This document shows, one piece after another, positions 4,264 to 28,732 of a DNA stretch of 28,921 nucleotides. The translations under genes were made by a program, and so were the position numbers. The stretch is taken from positions 1 to 28,921 of the IMG/VR virus record IMGVR_UViG_3300030450_000116; one strand, written 5' to 3'. The notes below the pieces were generated by a model. The model made no database searches and had not been told where the DNA came from. It saw nothing but the letters and a program-made list of their open reading frames with translations. Every line of letters begins with the position of its first letter. The stretch's first letter is position 1. This stretch comes from a virus.

Positions 4264-4629
4264 TTAGTGGTTAGGTTTATACTTTGTTAAATTTATTCCA
4301 TATTGTTCAATTTGTGGATAGTTTTTGAATAGAAATTCTGTTCTATATTCTTTAAACTGCTCCCAAAATTCATCAAAATTAATTAAAGGATAATCAATAG
4401 GAGTTAAAATTTTAAAGCCTAAGTTTTCGTTTTGTGTGCTAAAAATTTCTATTAAATAACTATTGTTTATCCTTTCTTGATAATCTTTTAAATTATAGTA
4501 TCTAGGCGTTTCTCTCCTCATTCCTATCAACATAAATTCGTTGCTAATTCTGTGCAAGTGTTCGTCAAGTTCTTTTTTTATAGGTGTAATGTAGTTTACC
4601 TTTTCAAAGTTTAAATCTAGTGTTTTCAT
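4264..4629 (-). CDS. First gene of the early operon, hypothetical (121 aa)
   Basis: This is the promoter-proximal early gene, about 20 bases downstream of the expected transcription start of the TATATTTG promoter, with an A-rich leader (AAAACAAAGAAA) before ATG at 4629. The product is soluble and mixed alpha/beta, with DEHLHRISNEFMLIGMRRE and NFDEFWEQFKEYRTEFLF, and many aromatic and acidic residues. Proteins made first in infection often take over or block host functions, but no family is recognised and that role is inference from position. Confidence 0.6.
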   Translation of the reverse strand: MKTLDLNFEKVNYITPIKKELDEHLHRISNEFMLIGMRRETPRYYNLKDYQERINNSYLIEIFSTQNENLGFKILTPIDYPLINFDEFWEQFKEYRTEFLFKNYPQIEQYGINLTKYKPNH

Positions 4630-4655: not shown

Positions 4656-4685
4656 CAAATATATAACAATTATTTTAATTAACAA
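4656..4685 (-). promoter_or_regulatory. Early promoter, Bacteroidetes sigma type
   Basis: Reading the minus strand, TTG (4685-4683), 19 bases, then TATATTTG (4663-4656). This matches the known Bacteroidetes housekeeping promoter, a -33 TTG element and a -7 TAnnTTTG element with a spacer of about 17-20. Transcription should start near 4650, giving a 20-base A-rich leader before the ATG at 4629. It is placed correctly to drive the early operon with the host RNA polymerase. Confidence 0.7.
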
Positions 4686-4739
4686 CTATATAAACACAAT
4701 TATTTACAAAGTTATTAACAATTTAAGTGTTTATAACAT

Positions 4740-7142: not shown

Positions 7143-9137
7143 CTAGTTATAATATCCGTTATTTTTCATTTTACGTGGTGGTATTGCCACTAAATTGTCA
7201 TTTTTCTCAGCAGTAAATCCCTCTGACCTTGCTTTTGTATATCCAATCAATTGAGAACTACTAATTTTGCTTTTTGCATTTCTTAAAGATGTTTTGTAAA
7301 TTCTACGACTCCAGTAATGGAAACATTGGGGGCCGCCCTTGTATAGCCAAATTGAATAAGTTGCTGCACCTTCAATTCCAAAGCCTGGATTGACAGCCAT
7401 TTTACCCATCTTTAAAATATCCTCTTTACGATATATTTTGTTTGCTGATTCCATTTTGCGACAGAATTCTCTTTTAGTTCCTGATTTATTTACTAAAAAA
7501 TCATCATTTTCATAAACATATCTAACTTTATAATAGTCATTATAAGACCTATTAACTCCGTCTTGCTCACTTCTAGCATTCGGTCTTGCTGTTCCAGTTG
7601 AGGTTAATTCTATTTTGTCATTTGCAAATTCATTAAGCGTTTTCTCAAAATCAAAATCTTGATGTTCACCGTCAACAACTTCTTCTTCAATTAATTCCCA
7701 ATCGTCAGGTATATCTTCTAAAGTTTCTAAAAACGCTTCTAACTCTGTCTTGTTAAAATTCATTAGTTCATCGTGGCTCTCACAAGCCATATAAACCGTT
7801 TTGCCCTCGTATTCGTGTTCATGGTAGCCCTTACACCCTAAAGTCTTTGAATGCTCTTCAGCCTCTTCTATGGTGCTAAAAACAGGCTTACCGTCTATCA
7901 TTCCAACTTTTGAATATTCGTCACGCACAACCTCTTGGTCATTTAAAGGTGGTAAGCCTAACTCTTCACGTATTTCATCTTGTGTCATTACATCTCTTAT
8001 TGTAGCTGAATCAAATTGAACCGTTATAGGTTTAAGCTGAACAAAACTAACAGGCATATCCATATTATTGACTGTAAATATTTTCCTTAAAACCTTAATG
8101 ATATGCTCTTGAAATGGGGCAACAACAGTATTAAGATAAAAATTCGCTGCATTTACAAGTTCGTCTGTATTTGACGAAAACCCATTAGTTGAATCAATAC
8201 CCATTAGCGTTTTTGATGTCACTCTATGACCACTAAGAATGTTCTGCACCAAGAGTTCTTGGAGTGCTAAATATTGCTTATCTAAATCGCTAGGTGTTAT
8301 TGCTGTAATCTCAGGGGTTCTTGTTTTATCGTCAGAGAATGTCAATATGAATTTCCCTGCGTTCTTTTCTGATGCGAATTTATCTGTAAGGCTTTGTTCT
8401 ATTTGAAATCTCTCTTCTTGTGTCGGCACTCCATTCGCAAAGCTGACCATAAAACTTCCTGAAAAGCCATTAGAGATATTATTAAGGTGAAACTCAGCCA
8501 CGCGTTGGTCAACCAACGCCCAATTATTTGCTGCTAAATAGTCAGGTGTGTGATATACATTCATACTAGGACTATAAAGACCTGAATATAAAATCTGATT
8601 TGCACTTGTTCTGTCTTTAGTATTAAAGGCAGGTACTCTGTAAGGCTTGTGAGTTCTTGTGTTAGCCCAATCAGAAGAAACATAATAGGCTTCTACTTTT
8701 CCTAACTCATTAGGTTTTTCTGCCCTGATTTTCTCAACTCCAATATGATAAATTTCTGCGATTTGTGTTCTGTCCTGTGACCATACAATATTAAGAGCAA
8801 ACGCACCTTGTAATTTAAAGTCAAAGCTAATCTTTTTAATTACTTCGTGTAGCGTTTCATTACTGTTAGCTTCTGCAAAGAATTTCTTTAGCTTTACAAT
8901 AGCATCTAATTCTCTTTCGTCTTCGTCATCAATCACTAAGTCTTCACCTGCTATCATTTCTGCTGTCGCATTAATTATCGCTGCTTGTGTCGAGCTGTTG
9001 TAATAAAGGTCTATTAAGAATTGTGGATAAAGGTTCGCCCAATCATCTGTGCCATACGAAATCCATTCTTTACCTCTAGTTTCAGTAACTACTGGTGCTG
9101 TTGAGGTGCTTAAATCTACGCTAATTATGTTTTCCAT
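7143..9137 (-). CDS. Portal protein with a long C-terminal extension
   Basis: The first 400 or so residues have the character of a phage portal: WANLYPQFLIDLYYNSSTQA, AAIINATAEMIAGEDLVIDD, a helical stem region and VVAPFQEHIIKVLRKIFTVN, then QDEIREELGLPPLN. The portal ring is the DNA channel of the head and docks the terminase. From about residue 430 an extra part begins with Cys/His-rich GCKGYHEHEYEGKTVYMACE and ends with REFCRKMESANKIYRKEDIL and GGPQCFHYWSRRIYKTSLR. This extension is of a kind seen in Bacteroidetes phage head proteins; its function is unknown. At 664 residues the protein is longer than most portals. Confidence 0.8.
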   Translation of the reverse strand: MENIISVDLSTSTAPVVTETRGKEWISYGTDDWANLYPQFLIDLYYNSSTQAAIINATAEMIAGEDLVIDDEDERELDAIVKLKKFFAEANSNETLHEVIKKISFDFKLQGAFALNIVWSQDRTQIAEIYHIGVEKIRAEKPNELGKVEAYYVSSDWANTRTHKPYRVPAFNTKDRTSANQILYSGLYSPSMNVYHTPDYLAANNWALVDQRVAEFHLNNISNGFSGSFMVSFANGVPTQEERFQIEQSLTDKFASEKNAGKFILTFSDDKTRTPEITAITPSDLDKQYLALQELLVQNILSGHRVTSKTLMGIDSTNGFSSNTDELVNAANFYLNTVVAPFQEHIIKVLRKIFTVNNMDMPVSFVQLKPITVQFDSATIRDVMTQDEIREELGLPPLNDQEVVRDEYSKVGMIDGKPVFSTIEEAEEHSKTLGCKGYHEHEYEGKTVYMACESHDELMNFNKTELEAFLETLEDIPDDWELIEEEVVDGEHQDFDFEKTLNEFANDKIELTSTGTARPNARSEQDGVNRSYNDYYKVRYVYENDDFLVNKSGTKREFCRKMESANKIYRKEDILKMGKMAVNPGFGIEGAATYSIWLYKGGPQCFHYWSRRIYKTSLRNAKSKISSSQLIGYTKARSEGFTAEKNDNLVAIPPRKMKNNGYYN

Positions 9138-10716: not shown

Positions 10717-10747
10717 ATATAATAGAAAACAGACTTAAATATTTGCT
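10717..10747 (-). promoter_or_regulatory. Late promoter candidate P5 (full bipartite motif)
   Basis: On the minus strand AGCAAATA (10747-10740), 13 bases, TCTATTATAT (10726-10717), then AGT and the ATG at 10713. The upstream box is identical to that of the copy at 14395-14425. It begins nine bases past the T-run of the terminator at 10756-10777, exactly where a new transcript would be expected to start. The start would be at or next to the ATG, so the mRNA could be leaderless. Confidence 0.6.
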
Positions 10748-11447: not shown

Positions 11448-12371
11448 TTATGATTGTCTTACAATGTCAGCACCAACTCCTGTCTGAACACCACCTGACC
11501 ATCTAGCAACTAAACGCATATTGTCACTTCCGTCTAAAGCTGCCATATCCATCAAAGTAATTCTAGTCGCATCTGAAAGCAAATCAGTTCCGTAGAATAA
11601 GTTAGACTTTTCTGCTGCTACTAATTGATTGTCAACCATTCCTGGACAAACTGCAATCTTGTAACCCTCAAATACAGGCTCATAGTCACCGTTCATATTG
11701 TAAGCGTTTACATATCCTAAAGTAGAAACTGCTGATACATAGAAAGCGTAAGTTTTTGGGTTCATGTAAATATGCAAATCCTCTTTTCTTAATACAGGAG
11801 ATATATTCGCTGCCATATCTGCTGTTAATGTTTGTAAGTTTGCAATAATGTTAGCTGCTGTATAAGCACCTGACGCTGAAGATTGAATAACTGTTGCATC
11901 AGCATTAGTACCTGTTGGCATTAAATATCCATTCGTACCTAAGAACCCCTGAAACTCTCCTGTTGTTCCACCTGCACCTTCCCAAACACTTTCTTCTGTT
12001 GCTTGTGCTATAATCTCACCCATATAAGAAATCACATAGTCGTCAAAACTTGCAGGTGGTGGTGCTCCTGCTCCTGCTCTCATTTGTAACGCTTCCCATG
12101 AATCTAAAAGAGTAGATTTGCAAAGGTCTAAATTGATTTGTAAATTTTTAGGCTCTAATACCTTTTCTGTAAGTGCTAAAGTACCTGCATCTGTAAAGTC
12201 ACAAGTAGCATCAACAACTACTGATGAACCTGCCATTCTTTGTATATTAGACTTGTACTTGATATTTTCTATCATTGTTAAGTAGTCTAATGATTTTGCT
12301 TCTTTCAGGGCTGCTGCAATATAAAATCCAGCCGCTTTTCCTGCATAATTTGATGTTGTAGTAAACGCCAT
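11448..12371 (-). CDS. Major capsid protein, HK97-like
   Basis: This 307-residue protein comes directly after protease and scaffold genes, the classical order. It shows the expected features: an N-terminal helix (YIAAALKEAKSLDYLTMIEN), acidic beta stretches, LRKEDLHIYMNPKTYAFYVS, then FEGYKIAVCPGMVDNQLVAA and a C-terminal ARWSGGVQTGVGADIVRQS. No long N-terminal delta domain is present, which fits the use of a separate scaffold protein. The start is ATG at 12371. Confidence 0.85.
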   Translation of the reverse strand: MAFTTTSNYAGKAAGFYIAAALKEAKSLDYLTMIENIKYKSNIQRMAGSSVVVDATCDFTDAGTLALTEKVLEPKNLQINLDLCKSTLLDSWEALQMRAGAGAPPPASFDDYVISYMGEIIAQATEESVWEGAGGTTGEFQGFLGTNGYLMPTGTNADATVIQSSASGAYTAANIIANLQTLTADMAANISPVLRKEDLHIYMNPKTYAFYVSAVSTLGYVNAYNMNGDYEPVFEGYKIAVCPGMVDNQLVAAEKSNLFYGTDLLSDATRITLMDMAALDGSDNMRLVARWSGGVQTGVGADIVRQS

Positions 12372-13126: not shown

Positions 13127-13155
13127 ATATAATAGAATAGTTATTTATTTATTTG
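13127..13155 (-). promoter_or_regulatory. Late promoter candidate P4
   Basis: Minus strand CAAATA (13155-13150), 13 bases, then TCTATTATAT (13136-13127). The upstream box lies in the last codons of the protease gene. Here the ATG of the scaffold gene (13096) is 30 bases further on, so this copy would give a leader, unlike the three copies 3 bases from an ATG. It is placed to drive scaffold and capsid genes. Confidence 0.55.
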
Positions 13156-13753
13156 ATTTTCTGATTATTTCGTTAAGTGCTGAAAGTATCTCTAAATCTG
13201 TTGGTTGTCTTTCTGACATCTTTTGCATTTTATCTGTAAAATAGCCCTCAATAGACAAACCTTTTAAAGAACCGTCTTTAATCTTAGCCCATAAGTCGTC
13301 ATTCTCAATTTTCATTTTTACCATCCACGTTCCTTTTGGTAAACTAAATCCGTATAATGTACTCTTATCTTTTTTACTATCTTCTATTATCCAACTTTCA
13401 ACAGTTAAAACTCCTGACACTCTATCTTGGTGTTCATGAGTTGCTTTGTGGTGGTTGTTGTTTTTCAAATATAACTCACTCGCTTTTCTTACAGTTTCAG
13501 GGCTGAAATAAACATAATAATCTGAATCTGTATTTGGGTCATATCTAAATATTTGCTTATTCGGTATCAAAGCAGGGCTAACAAGCATTCTCTTTTCTTT
13601 ATCAACCTTAGCAAATGTCAAGTTGTTTTTCTCTTTTCCAAAGAAAACAAAGTCTTGTTCGATTGCAGGTGCAGCAACTAAGCTGATTGCGTCAATAGCA
13701 AGTTCTTCACTATTTTCATCTATTACTAATTCTACTATTCTTGTATTTTTCAT
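13145..13753 (-). CDS. Prohead protease, XkdF-like (S78-type)
   Basis: This 202-residue protein matches the XkdF/Peptidase_S78_2 pattern: EKRMLVSPALIPNKQIFRYD, YYVYFSPETVRKASELYLKN, KATHEHQ with the likely catalytic His, VESWIIEDSKKDKSTLYGFS, PKGTWMVKMKIEND and SLKGLSIEGYF with the likely catalytic Ser. The enzyme cuts scaffold and capsid precursors during head maturation. It is directly followed by scaffold and capsid genes. Start ATG at 13753, two bases after the upstream stop. Confidence 0.85.
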   Translation of the reverse strand: MKNTRIVELVIDENSEELAIDAISLVAAPAIEQDFVFFGKEKNNLTFAKVDKEKRMLVSPALIPNKQIFRYDPNTDSDYYVYFSPETVRKASELYLKNNNHHKATHEHQDRVSGVLTVESWIIEDSKKDKSTLYGFSLPKGTWMVKMKIENDDLWAKIKDGSLKGLSIEGYFTDKMQKMSERQPTDLEILSALNEIIRKSNK

Positions 13754-14394: not shown

Positions 14395-14425
14395 ATATAA
14401 TAGATTTAATTAATTTTTATTTGCT
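14395..14425 (-). promoter_or_regulatory. Late promoter candidate P3 (full bipartite motif)
   Basis: Minus strand AGCAAATA (14425-14418), 13 bases, TCTATTATAT (14404-14395), ATT, then ATG at 14391. Both boxes and spacing equal those of the copy at 10717-10747. It lies between the tape measure gene and the zinc-ribbon gene, where the tail module ends and the head module begins. Confidence 0.6.
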
Positions 14426-23552: not shown

Positions 23553-23562
23553 ATATAATAGA
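23553..23562 (-). promoter_or_regulatory. Late promoter candidate P2 (core motif)
   Basis: TCTATTATAT on the minus strand at 23562-23553, in the 41-base gap between the large terminase stop and the chaperone start. The upstream box at the usual spacing is degenerate (AGTAAACTA, ending 13 bases before the core). The distance to the ATG is 14 bases. It is placed to drive the tail module. Confidence 0.5.
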
Positions 23563-23579
23563 AATTTGTTAAAAATAGT

Positions 23580-24893
23580 TTACTGCACAAAATACTTTCC
23601 AAAGTTACTATCAATTTCATAATAGCAACGCATAGCCATTGCATCTGCATAATCAGGTGACCTACCTATTATGCCCTTAATTGTTTCTTTTGAAAAGATT
23701 TGTAACTTATTATCTTTGTCTGCATCTTTCATTCTTACCTGTTCACATTCTTCAATGATTTGGTTTTTTATATTTACATCAGGGCATATTACACCCACTT
23801 GCCCTTTGTTTATTAGGTCGGCTAATTTATAAAAGCATTGTGTCTTTAGGTTCTGATAGTTTTCACCTTTCAATGCCCTTGCATTATTAACAAAACCAAT
23901 ACATCTTAAATAATCTTTAACACCCCCACCAACTCCGTCCTCATCAACAATAATATTCCTTAAAGGCACTTCATGTTCTTGCTGTAAAGCCCTTACTTCG
24001 TCCACAACCTCATTTACAGACGATTTAAGCATACTTCTTATCTTTTTAATATGTAACCCCTCCCAATACATTATAACCGTCTTATCGCTTCCAAATCGCG
24101 CCACATCACAACTTATGTATTTAGCACCACTAACTCCTTTTTGATTAAAGATATTTAAAATAGCATCATAATCAATTAAGCTATCATTACTTGCATCATA
24201 TTCCCAGTTACCAAATAAAAGCCTTTGTTTTGATAATTCGTCTAATGTTAATAATTGTGTCTTATAATATTTAGATATATATTCATTATCGTCAACTAAA
24301 CTTTGTATGAATTTTCTGTGGGGTTTTTGCTTTCCGTCTTTTGCTGGTCTATAATACTGAGTGTAAACCCAATTCTTTGCAGGGTTACAAGTCATTAGCA
24401 TTTTAGGTATCAAACCATAGTCATCTAATTTATACCTCATTCTTGACGCCACTATGTTTTTAGCTTTCTCAGTTATTTGATTTGCTTCATCTATAAAAGC
24501 CCCTGTGATTTCTAAAGAACCCAAGTTGTCAAAGTTTTTGTCAGATGGATATAAAAACAAATCTTTAAGCATTATTTCAGAACGATTAAAAAATGTTATG
24601 ATATTTGACCCTGCATTGAAATTATAATGCTTACTTGCTTTTATGCCCCACGCTTCACATACTTCAAAAAAAGTGTTAAGTGTTGTTTTCTTTAAACTAT
24701 CAAGTTTTGACCTACCCATTAAATATCTAGTCTTAGGATATTTTAAGCACATTAATATTAACCATGCACAACCTACCCAAGACTTTCCACCACCTGCTGC
24801 ACCACCAAAAAGAACTTCTGTTGTAGTTTTGTCAAATAGATATTCTATTGCTTGTTCCTGTGTGTCAGTAAAGTTAGCATCAATGTTCAACAC
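23580..24893 (-). CDS. terL: Terminase large subunit
   Basis: This 437-residue DNA packaging motor has a Walker A motif GGAAGGGKS (residues 30-38), Walker B with catalytic acid ITGAFIDEA (DE at about 134-135), and a C-terminal RNase H-like nuclease with the Asp motifs ISCDVARFGSDK (about 248), NIIVDEDGVGG (about 315) and DYADAMAMR (about 420). It translocates DNA into the head and cuts concatemers. The start is GTG at 24893 (or TTG at 24890), because an in-frame TAA lies two codons upstream; it overlaps the end of the small subunit gene by 14 bases. Confidence 0.92.
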   Translation of the reverse strand: MLNIDANFTDTQEQAIEYLFDKTTTEVLFGGAAGGGKSWVGCAWLILMCLKYPKTRYLMGRSKLDSLKKTTLNTFFEVCEAWGIKASKHYNFNAGSNIITFFNRSEIMLKDLFLYPSDKNFDNLGSLEITGAFIDEANQITEKAKNIVASRMRYKLDDYGLIPKMLMTCNPAKNWVYTQYYRPAKDGKQKPHRKFIQSLVDDNEYISKYYKTQLLTLDELSKQRLLFGNWEYDASNDSLIDYDAILNIFNQKGVSGAKYISCDVARFGSDKTVIMYWEGLHIKKIRSMLKSSVNEVVDEVRALQQEHEVPLRNIIVDEDGVGGGVKDYLRCIGFVNNARALKGENYQNLKTQCFYKLADLINKGQVGVICPDVNIKNQIIEECEQVRMKDADKDNKLQIFSKETIKGIIGRSPDYADAMAMRCYYEIDSNFGKYFVQ

Positions 24894-25233
24894 CTTTTAT
24901 ATTTACGTTAATTTTAATTGGTTCGTCACCTGAACTTAGGTCTAGTTCACTGCGTTCAATATATCCTCGTTTCTTTCCTTTTGTCTTTAGAAAGAATATT
25001 GTTGCTGATGTATTGCCATCACCTATTTGTTTATGTAATTGGCTTTCACCAAAATCTAGTGCTATGTTTTCAATCTCTTTAACTGCTCTTGCAAAGTCTT
25101 CATCTTCTTTTAGCCATTTATAATATGTGCTTCTAGGTATATCGGTTTGCTTACAAGCTACTGTCACTACACCTAAACTATTTTCTAATGCCTGTAAAAT
25201 TGCTTCCTTTTTTATATGTCTACTTTTGTCCAT
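24880..25233 (-). CDS. terS: Terminase small subunit
   Basis: This 117-residue protein has an N-terminal helix-turn-helix (VTVACKQTDIPRSTYYKWLK, about residues 22-42), a helical middle and the motif GDGNTSATIFFLKTKGKKRG (about 75-95), common in small terminases. The small subunit recognises the packaging site and regulates the large one, which follows directly. It starts where the glycosyltransferase gene ends (shared bases at 25233). A homeodomain-like regulator is the alternative, but context favours terminase. Confidence 0.8.
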   Translation of the reverse strand: MDKSRHIKKEAILQALENSLGVVTVACKQTDIPRSTYYKWLKEDEDFARAVKEIENIALDFGESQLHKQIGDGNTSATIFFLKTKGKKRGYIERSELDLSSGDEPIKINVNIKGVEH

Positions 25234-26099
25234 TATTTTATTTTCTTTAATTCCATACCGTAATTATCTACACCGTTTTTTATTTTAATATTTTTCTTTT
25301 TAATTAACTTTATTTTTTTAAAAGGCGTATAATCTACGTGATGATGTATTCGCCCAAATCTAAATACTATTTTTGAAACGTCAGGGTGTATATCTACCTG
25401 CATTTGACTTTTAGGTAAAGTGCCCTCTTTGTCGTAAAACTCTGCTGAATTTCCACCTCTTAAAACTTGTGTAGTAGTCTTTAATTGCATAAAAGCATTA
25501 AATTGAATAGTGCAATACCCTGCTTTTAACATATCCAAACTTAATATAGTATCTTCATTGTATCGTCCTCGCCATTTAAAAGGAGCATCATTTTTTATAA
25601 GATTACAGCTATATATTCTTGTATTCTTTACAAATGGTGGCAGTTTCGCCTTACGAGGTACAAACATATAATAATTTGGTCCTGCCATTGCTACATTCTC
25701 ATATCGTTCAACAAAGTCTTCCATAGCTCTAAAACAAGACCCATTATGTACTGGTATTTGTAAATTATTATTCATTCGTAAAAATCTTTCAATATTATCG
25801 TCCATCACCCAATGATATGCAAAGCCACCTTTCTTTGAATGTTCCCATACAAAATTCCTTGCTGCGCCTGGTCCTGTACTTTTAGACCTGCCTAAATTAT
25901 CAAGAACTTCATATTCATCTAAATACTTTTCAGGTAGTATTAAAATCTTTTCCTTATCTATTACTGCTGCATAATCTTTATAATCACTTTGTTCAATCAC
26001 AATATAATAAGGCACATTCATTTTCTCTAAAGCCTTACTGGTTAATCTACTATCCGCCCTGCCTTTTGAAACTATATACAACGGATATTTAGGATTCAT
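25233..26099 (-). CDS. TET-associated-type glycosyltransferase, putative DNA base modification enzyme
   Basis: This 288-residue GT-A-fold protein matches the TAGT pattern: PLYIVSKGRADSRLTSKALE near the N-terminus, GPGAARNF (residues 76-83), HWVMDDN with the metal-binding Asp pair (100-101), and RYNEDTILSLDML with NEDT at 181-184. In known phages such enzymes add sugars to hydroxylated bases to protect DNA from nucleases. No TET/JBP oxygenase or hydroxymethyltransferase was seen here, so the acceptor is unknown. I chose ATG at 26099 (MNPKYPLYIV), which overlaps the ParB-like stop by 11 bases; the longer reading from 26129 lies further inside that gene. Confidence 0.7.
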   Translation of the reverse strand: MNPKYPLYIVSKGRADSRLTSKALEKMNVPYYIVIEQSDYKDYAAVIDKEKILILPEKYLDEYEVLDNLGRSKSTGPGAARNFVWEHSKKGGFAYHWVMDDNIERFLRMNNNLQIPVHNGSCFRAMEDFVERYENVAMAGPNYYMFVPRKAKLPPFVKNTRIYSCNLIKNDAPFKWRGRYNEDTILSLDMLKAGYCTIQFNAFMQLKTTTQVLRGGNSAEFYDKEGTLPKSQMQVDIHPDVSKIVFRFGRIHHHVDYTPFKKIKLIKKKNIKIKNGVDNYGMELKKIK

Positions 26100-26679
26100 C
26101 TGTATATGCTTTGTCAAACTGTTTTTCAATAGCTGCTTGTGGGTACCATAAACTTTTAGTTTTATCAGTAATATTTTGACCTATAAGTTTAGAGAATTTT
26201 TTTATATCATCTTCATTTTTAAAAGATATAATAAGTTGTCTTTTTGGCGTTAAGTCCTTATTGTTAAATTCAGGCATACCACTCCATTCAAGTTCTGCAT
26301 CTAGTTCGTTTTTATCATCAGAATTTTCCCATACATCTAACCCCCATTTGCTAATTTGTATTGTGTTCCATTCGTTCCCTAACATAGCCCAATCCCATTC
26401 ACCAAATCCAACATTATCTTTGATTATAAATTCTTGTTTTTGTTCTACTGTTAAGCCTTTGGCTATTTTTACAGGAACTTCTTTTAGACCTGCTTCAATA
26501 CAAGCCTTATGTCTCATATTGCCACCTAGTATTATATTGTTTTCATCTATAACTATTGGTCTTAATTCTAACATTTCTGGAAAATCCTTAATGCTTTCTA
26601 CAAGTTTTTTGAATTTATGGTCTTTAATAATTCGTGGGTTTGATACATTTGATTGTATATCGTTGATTTTTAGTTTCAT
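26089..26679 (-). CDS. ParB/sulfiredoxin-like domain protein
   Basis: The N-terminal 100 residues of this 196-residue protein form a ParB-like domain: KFKKLVESIKDFPEMLELRP, IVIDENNIILGGNMRHKACI with the GGNMRHKA motif at about residues 53-60, then EVPVKIAKGL. Such domains occur in phage proteins with nuclease, nucleotide-binding or DNA-modification partners. The C-terminal part (DLTPKRQLIISFKNEDDIKK, IGQNITDKTKSLWYPQ) is a second small domain. The gene overlaps the glycosyltransferase by 11 bases, so the two probably work in one pathway. The ATG lies 3 bases after a late promoter-like core. Confidence 0.75.
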   Translation of the reverse strand: MKLKINDIQSNVSNPRIIKDHKFKKLVESIKDFPEMLELRPIVIDENNIILGGNMRHKACIEAGLKEVPVKIAKGLTVEQKQEFIIKDNVGFGEWDWAMLGNEWNTIQISKWGLDVWENSDDKNELDAELEWSGMPEFNNKDLTPKRQLIISFKNEDDIKKFSKLIGQNITDKTKSLWYPQAAIEKQFDKAYTDES

Positions 26680-26682
26680 AGT

Positions 26683-26710
26683 ATATAATAGAATTTTATG
26701 TTATTTATTT
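26683..26710 (-). promoter_or_regulatory. Late promoter candidate P1 (first copy)
   Basis: Minus strand AAATA (26710-26706), 13 bases, TCTATTATAT (26692-26683), then ACT and ATG at 26679. The upstream box overlaps the stop codon of the previous gene. It would drive the ParB-like, glycosyltransferase and terminase genes. This is the first copy met downstream of the sigma-like gene. Confidence 0.6.
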
Positions 26711-28711: not shown

Positions 28712-28732
28712 TTGCCAAATTTAGCAAAATAT

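Follow-up and report, generated by a model that had tools for sequence, protein, structure and literature searches.

The window analysed here, a viral record of 28.9 kb, carries nearly all of its genes on the minus strand. The 10-mer TCTATTATAT occurs in it exactly five times on the minus strand, in each case the coding strand, and not once on the plus strand; in 100 dinucleotide shuffles the mean number of copies was 0.29, and five were never reached. A preliminary description had located these copies in gaps just before genes. All five coordinates were confirmed (Table 1), and the cores do lie in gaps, each before a minus-strand gene, but at P1, P2 and P4 the accompanying upstream box reaches into the end of the gene before it. 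As had been described, the core continues as ANT and then ATG in three copies (P1, P3 and P5), and the upstream box is found 13 bases before the core, reading AGCAAATA at P3 and P5, TCAAATA at P4 and TTAAATA at P1. The fifth box, at P2, had been set down as degenerate, which needs qualifying, as it reads AAACTA and fits the group consensus AA[AC]TA. The idea that the box is a stop-codon effect, suggested by its overlap with TAA at P1 and P2, was ruled out, since the box is clear of the stop codon at P3 and P5.

Table 1. Candidate promoters and the sigma-like gene of the window
Feature	Position	Strand	Sequence elements	Predicted start or leader	Matrix score	Context
P1, candidate late promoter	26683..26710	-	box AAATAAA 26710-26704; core TCTATTATAT 26692-26683	putative +1 26679, the A of the ATG of the ParB-like gene	38.1	unit: ParB-like, glucosyltransferase-like, TerS, TerL; site conserved before w08 orthologues
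P2, candidate late promoter	23553..23580	-	box AACTATT 23580-23574, overlapping the TerL stop; core 23562-23553	putative leader of ~11 nt to ATG 23538	25.4	unit: run of virion structural/tail-type genes; site conserved before w12 orthologues, there often apparently leaderless
P3, candidate late promoter	14395..14422	-	box AAATAAA 14422-14416; core 14404-14395	putative +1 14391, the A of the ATG	25.8	unit includes prohead protease 13145-13753 (Peptidase_S78_2)
P4, candidate late promoter	13127..13154	-	box AAATAAA 13154-13148, falling within the end of the protease gene; core 13136-13127	putatively leadered, start codon 13096	25.7	unit includes Phage_capsid-like gene 11448-12371; in relatives leadered wherever the w22 start was called
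P5, candidate late promoter	10717..10744	-	box AAATATT 10744-10738; core 10726-10717	putative +1 10713, the A of the ATG	11.9	unit includes portal 7143-9137
Phage sigma factor, 188 aa	27796..28362	-	R76 codon 28137-28135			predicted two-domain: sigma2-like helices 2-92, linker, sigma4-type HTH 124-185
Host-type -7 element	28716..28723	-	TAAATTTG	12 nt before ATG (28711) of the gene upstream of sigma		presumed to serve the sigma operon as its sigma-A promoter
Tandem host-type -7 elements	4656..4714	-	TAACTTTG 4714-4707; TATATTTG 4663-4656			precede the early operon, which opens with gene 4264-4629 and has the replication initiator and SSB genes farther along

In a scan of the window with a matrix built from relatives only, the five sites took the five highest scores, the next best match reaching 8.1; the top score among 20 simulated windows was 11.5. 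By matrix score alone P5 is weak against this simulated maximum; its orthologues, however, score 10-30. The same scan found no late-type element before the genes for the replication initiator and the single-strand binding protein (1.3-2.7 kb). The common element thus precedes packaging and structural operons and is absent before early genes, and the genes downstream of it (terminase, tail-type structural proteins, protease, capsid and portal) fit the label "late". Between the ParB-like gene and the terminase, the minus-strand gene at 25233-26129 encodes a protein that matches PHROG 842 (beta-glucosyl-HMC-alpha-glucosyltransferase, 3.9e-51), a possible DNA-modification or other glycosyltransferase.

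Conservation and geometry of the element in related phages

Relatives were collected from IMG/VR by searching with the terminase and with the sigma-like protein, 80 loci each and 1.6 Mb together. TCTATTATAT is among the commonest 10-mers of this 1.6 Mb (198 forward versus 37 reverse), and the matrix has 138 and 91 matches on the coding strand of relatives versus 0 and 0 on the other strand. Together with the shuffles and the performance of the relatives-trained matrix, these strand counts rule out chance or AT-rich composition. On the non-coding strand, TCTATTATAT itself is found 30 times in the TerL set (L006-L085) and seven times in the sigma set, in all cases lacking the upstream box, and there it probably represents a conserved coding stretch.

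The site profile consists of two islands, one at -18 to -12 (AA[AC]TAAA) and one comprising the core followed by A, N and T, while the flanks between and outside the boxes vary and bases upstream of -21 are unconserved. The first AA of the upstream box (-18/-17) is invariant in 149 of the 149 sites used; position -16 is A in 53% and C in 46%. In 20 related whole contigs of 24-33 kb, orthologues of these five genes are again preceded by sites of the relatives-trained matrix: 15 contigs have the full set of five, and the others have three or four. On the opposite strand of the 20 contigs, the matrix gives three matches above 10 in all (scores 10.9-13.0). At the P1 position, some lineages have a different first gene, or TerS first. 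Changes of the core are coherent genome-wide, all five cores reading TACATTATAT in G002 and likewise in G003. Conservation by descent only was ruled out, because the five sites precede non-homologous genes and yet share both boxes, their flanks vary and their cores change coherently within a genome. The check named beforehand was whether the motif is absent from relatives that keep the sigma gene and the gene order; instead, it is retained ahead of the same five genes, with a sequence that covaries with residue 76 of the sigma-like protein (see below). Many of the contigs G001-G021 are 28-30 kb long and have the same gene order with different break points, suggesting a circularly permuted genome of ~29 kb.

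The distance between core and start codon bears on where a transcript would begin. Among 150 distinct sites, the ATG lies 3 bases past the core in 78 and 5 bases past it in 27. All sites with the ATG at distance 3 or 5 have a purine at core+13, and where the ATG is at least 9 bases away, 93% of the sites have an A there. For the start site and LEADERLESSNESS, a purine at core+13 that is also kept outside start codons points to +1 at that position. We therefore suggest that transcription would begin ~12 bases past the first core base pair, at a purine, which at P1, P3 and P5 would be the A of the start codon; these three mRNAs are likely leaderless, while P2 and P4 would give rise to short leaders. 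Most flavobacterial mRNAs are leadered (87% by >10 nt in F. johnsoniae, and 5.5% of mRNAs are leaderless in F. psychrophilum; PMC6847099, PMC9723704), whereas most late starts of the present phages would be leaderless.

With the ATG placed exactly 3 bases past the core in 137 of 294 sites, and with Bacteroidota lacking Shine-Dalgarno signals (PMC6847099), the core might also be regarded as a translation-initiation signal that is read on the mRNA or by the ribosome just before the ATG. However, at the other sites the distance from core to ATG runs from 1 to 33 bases with the same two boxes, and neither the presence of the element at only 5 of ~45 genes nor an upstream box 30 bases off suits a ribosome signal, so that we consider this explanation highly improbable.

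The phage sigma-like protein and its relation to the core

As the preliminary description had proposed, the phage carries a sigma-like gene. Its product matches phrog_1740 (RNA polymerase sigma factor; 1.5e-6 over residues 18-188), and its Foldseek matches are sigma factors, the best solved ones being the ECF sigmas M. tuberculosis SigL, Bartonella RpoE and E. coli sigma-E (E 3.5e-4 to 7.6e-3); RpoE-like phage proteins are among the viral matches. The Pfam model of sigma region 4 scores 22.2 bits, under its curated cut-off of 25.7, region 2 has no match, and a PDB sequence search with the sigma profile gave nothing significant (best E 0.44). The AlphaFold model, which is of low confidence (pLDDT 66; TM ~0.3), contains the two sets of helices listed in Table 1 and between them a low-confidence, disordered linker. 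The neighbouring genes w02 and w04 gave no informative family match.

The element and the sigma gene occur together. The Flavobacterium phage 11b-type clade, the TerL of which is 55% identical to that of the window, served as a control; in its 80 loci (0.90 Mb), no sigma was detected by HMM and the matrix found 4 weak matches, versus 138 in 0.87 Mb of the window's clade. Likewise, no good late-type site was found in Flavobacterium phage 11b (complete) or in most of Cellulophaga phage phi10:1. When viral contigs were scanned for the motif first, all 74 newly fetched loci among the matches listed were found to carry genes of this phage group, and 77 of 79 motifs among these matches precede orthologues of the expected genes. 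Also among the matches listed, the sigma gene is present in 15 of 15 contigs >25 kb, in one of them cut off by the contig edge, and the contigs that lack it are fragments of 12.6-23.5 kb. Relatives of the sigma protein are encoded by hundreds of marine viral contigs; tblastn found none in the cultured phage records of the phage collection, and a scan of genome contigs found no prophage or host copy, the sole match being a mis-binned phage contig. L247 (PBGL02000003.1), a 29-kb contig filed as a Euryarchaeota MAG, has the phage sigma (63% identity) and two late cores and is very probably a mis-binned phage contig.

Covariation between the protein and its presumed sites was analysed in 345 contigs with 244 distinct sigmas, keeping core positions -1 to 4 (counted from 0) neutral in site scoring and counting sites that scored above 15; this threshold excluded two seeming TCTATTATAT sites of the Y76 lineage, which had a low score (9.5) and no proper box. 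With sigmas bearing R76, the second core base is C at 320 of 325 sites, while it is A at 13 of 13 sites with N76 and at 5 of 5 with Y76 (18 of 18 together). One exception is L399, with R76 and one TACATTATAT site. In a tree built without that region, the sigmas lacking R76 form three lineages. Among the well-filled sigma columns, 76 alone has no residue shared between the 178 C-type sigmas and any A-type lineage. Across ~1,230 columns of seven phage proteins, the groups are told apart only by columns 76 and 78 of the sigma; the six other proteins (w02, w04, w06, ParB-like, TerL and w12; ~1,040 columns) contain no separating column, the Y1 lineage being without three of these genes. A tree-based sign test yielded 2-3 independent pairs, all in the expected direction; it is not significant alone, being too weak with only 2-3 independent changes of residue 76. 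As judged from these alignments, the promoter sequence appears to depend on the phage sigma.

The absence of any covarying column in the ParB-like protein, whose gene is missing in some lineages, or in the other five tested proteins also speaks against the possibility that the element is an operator or another protein site, bound by a repressor or by the ParB-like protein encoded after P1, or used in packaging or replication. The first unit does encode a ParB_N-domain protein, but the element has a single orientation and always stands at operon starts; an operator is the least probable of the alternatives that we considered. A late promoter read by a host sigma, primary or ECF and perhaps aided by a phage activator, while the phage "sigma" does something else, would have a fixed two-box layout like any promoter, and flavobacteria possess several ECF sigma factors (PMC9723704). 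However, the element is unlike TAHHTTTG, and related 11b-like phages, which probably have similar hosts, are without it. Moreover, the core base tracks residue 76 of the phage sigma over three lineages, which a host factor would not explain. We therefore regard a host sigma as improbable, if somewhat less so than a translation signal, and favour recognition by the phage sigma.

Compared to the other sigmas, those of G002 and G003 carry L68I, S74C, R76N, S77N and Y87N, exchanges at nearly invariant places that cluster within residues 68-87, with neither the HTH (156-178) nor the upstream box altered. L359 and the N76 lineage, the two lineages with a C at the third core base (TACATTATAT), share I68 at a position that is mostly L in the others and that may be a second specificity contact. 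In the AlphaFold model, residue 76 would be located between helices 45-73 and 78-92. An hhalign comparison of the sigma with E. coli RpoE gave no equivalence for residue 76, and considering this failure, the low-confidence model and the weak sequence matches, the residue is not reliably placed on a known sigma structure. In ECF sigmas, sigma2 residues of this general area read the upstream edge of the -10 element and the master base (PMC6411747), and swapping of a loop redirects specificity (PMC8103513). By analogy, residue 76 may correspond to these sigma2 contacts.

A predicted late transcription programme and its known counterparts

The preliminary description had also set the element apart from the host TAnnTTTG type, and the core indeed does not match TAHHTTTG. 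Host-type elements are found elsewhere. In 16 of 21 genomes, TAHHTTTG is located precisely 12 bases ahead of the ATG of the gene preceding sigma, at 361-367 bases from the sigma ATG, and none of the 21 genomes has a late-type site before the sigma operon, a host-type -7 element being found there instead. By host promoter geometry, the mRNA of the gene upstream of sigma may also be leaderless. Pairs of -7 elements similar to the tandem before the early operon, 40-51 nt apart, are seen in G005, G007, G012, G017, G018, G019 and G020.

The original proposal, a bipartite late promoter read by the phage sigma-like protein, is borne out by the five gene starts conserved in relatives, the covariation of the core with residue 76 and downstream genes that fit late expression; conservation, position, strand, co-occurrence and covariation are computed observations. 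The five two-part signals are very probably promoters recognised by the phage's own sigma, and we assign them with high confidence, as late promoters, to the host core RNA polymerase in combination with this two-domain protein. Host sigma-A would first read the TAHHTTTG promoters before the early and sigma operons, and the phage sigma would then direct the polymerase to AA[AC]TAAA-N11-TCTATTATATA(N)T(A) at the five late operons. This order is likely, its timing being deduced from gene content. Like start site and leaderlessness, binding and the assignment of domains to boxes are inferred: the HTH of the sigma would probably contact the upstream box and the sigma2-like domain the core, with residue 76 taking part in recognition of the second core base, C in the case of R and A in that of N or Y.

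T4 gp55 and SPO1 gp28 and gp33-gp34 are phage late sigmas, which turn the host core polymerase towards late promoters that have a consensus of their own; T4 gp55 promoters are -10-only (TATAAATA) and need a co-activator and a clamp. The present system resembles these in that a phage-encoded sigma would serve late promoters with their own consensus. In contrast to the -10-only promoters of gp55, there is a second conserved box at fixed spacing, and in contrast to both T4 gp55 and the SPO1 sigmas, the sigma appears ECF-like and to have an HTH of its own, in a genome of only ~29 kb whose host probably belongs to the Bacteroidota.

With ECF sigmas such as E. coli RpoE and M. tuberculosis SigH, the protein shares a predicted sigma2-linker-sigma4 layout, a size of ~190 aa and putative specificity residues in sigma2, and its candidate promoters are likewise stringent and bipartite, with rigid spacing and an upstream box containing AA[AC]T (PMC6411747, PMC8103513). 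ECF sigmas consist only of sigma2 and sigma4 with a linker of <50 residues; here the predicted layout comes from a model of pLDDT 66, and region 4 is sub-threshold. The core is TCTATTATAT or TACATTATAT, without the CGT of ECF -10 elements. For the AAC of ECF -35 elements, the upstream box has an invariant AA, the next position being divided between A and C as detailed above. Furthermore, there is no sign of autoregulation, no recognisable anti-sigma neighbour was noticed, the similarity is below family thresholds, and the protein would be a phage late regulator rather than a stress sigma. The data support a protein that would function in the manner of a phage late-sigma system; we do not claim strict membership of the ECF group, given the lack of a CGT -10 and of autoregulation and the weak sequence similarity. 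Bacteroidota sigma-A (sigma-ABfr) promoters (TTTG / TAHHTTTG; PMC6847099, PMC9723704), of the type presumably used for the early and sigma operons, likewise have an AT-rich -7 region, but the late core is without TTTG. Within the open-access literature, we found no earlier description of this sigma family or its promoter and no Bacteroidota phage late sigma with a mapped promoter; phage late sigmas as such are known, but the present two-domain family and its promoter seem not to have been described.

It is an even call whether residue 76, with residue 78, sets a promoter alphabet in which R reads C and N or Y read A at the second core base, such that neighbouring lineages have changed over the sigma along with all five late promoters and may by now be orthogonal to one another, most of their late mRNAs being leaderless in mainly leadered hosts. 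If this code is true, R76, N76 (G002) and Y76 (L058) sigmas would pair with their matched cores among TCTATTATAT, TACATTATAT and TATATTATAT. As natural variants have changed the sigma and all promoters together, the specificity code is directly testable in a heterologous Bacteroidota system and might provide a small tool for orthogonal expression in organisms in which E. coli promoters do not work. Host promoters, one sigma and five late promoters would amount to a complete and simple predicted programme for an abundant uncultured phage group.
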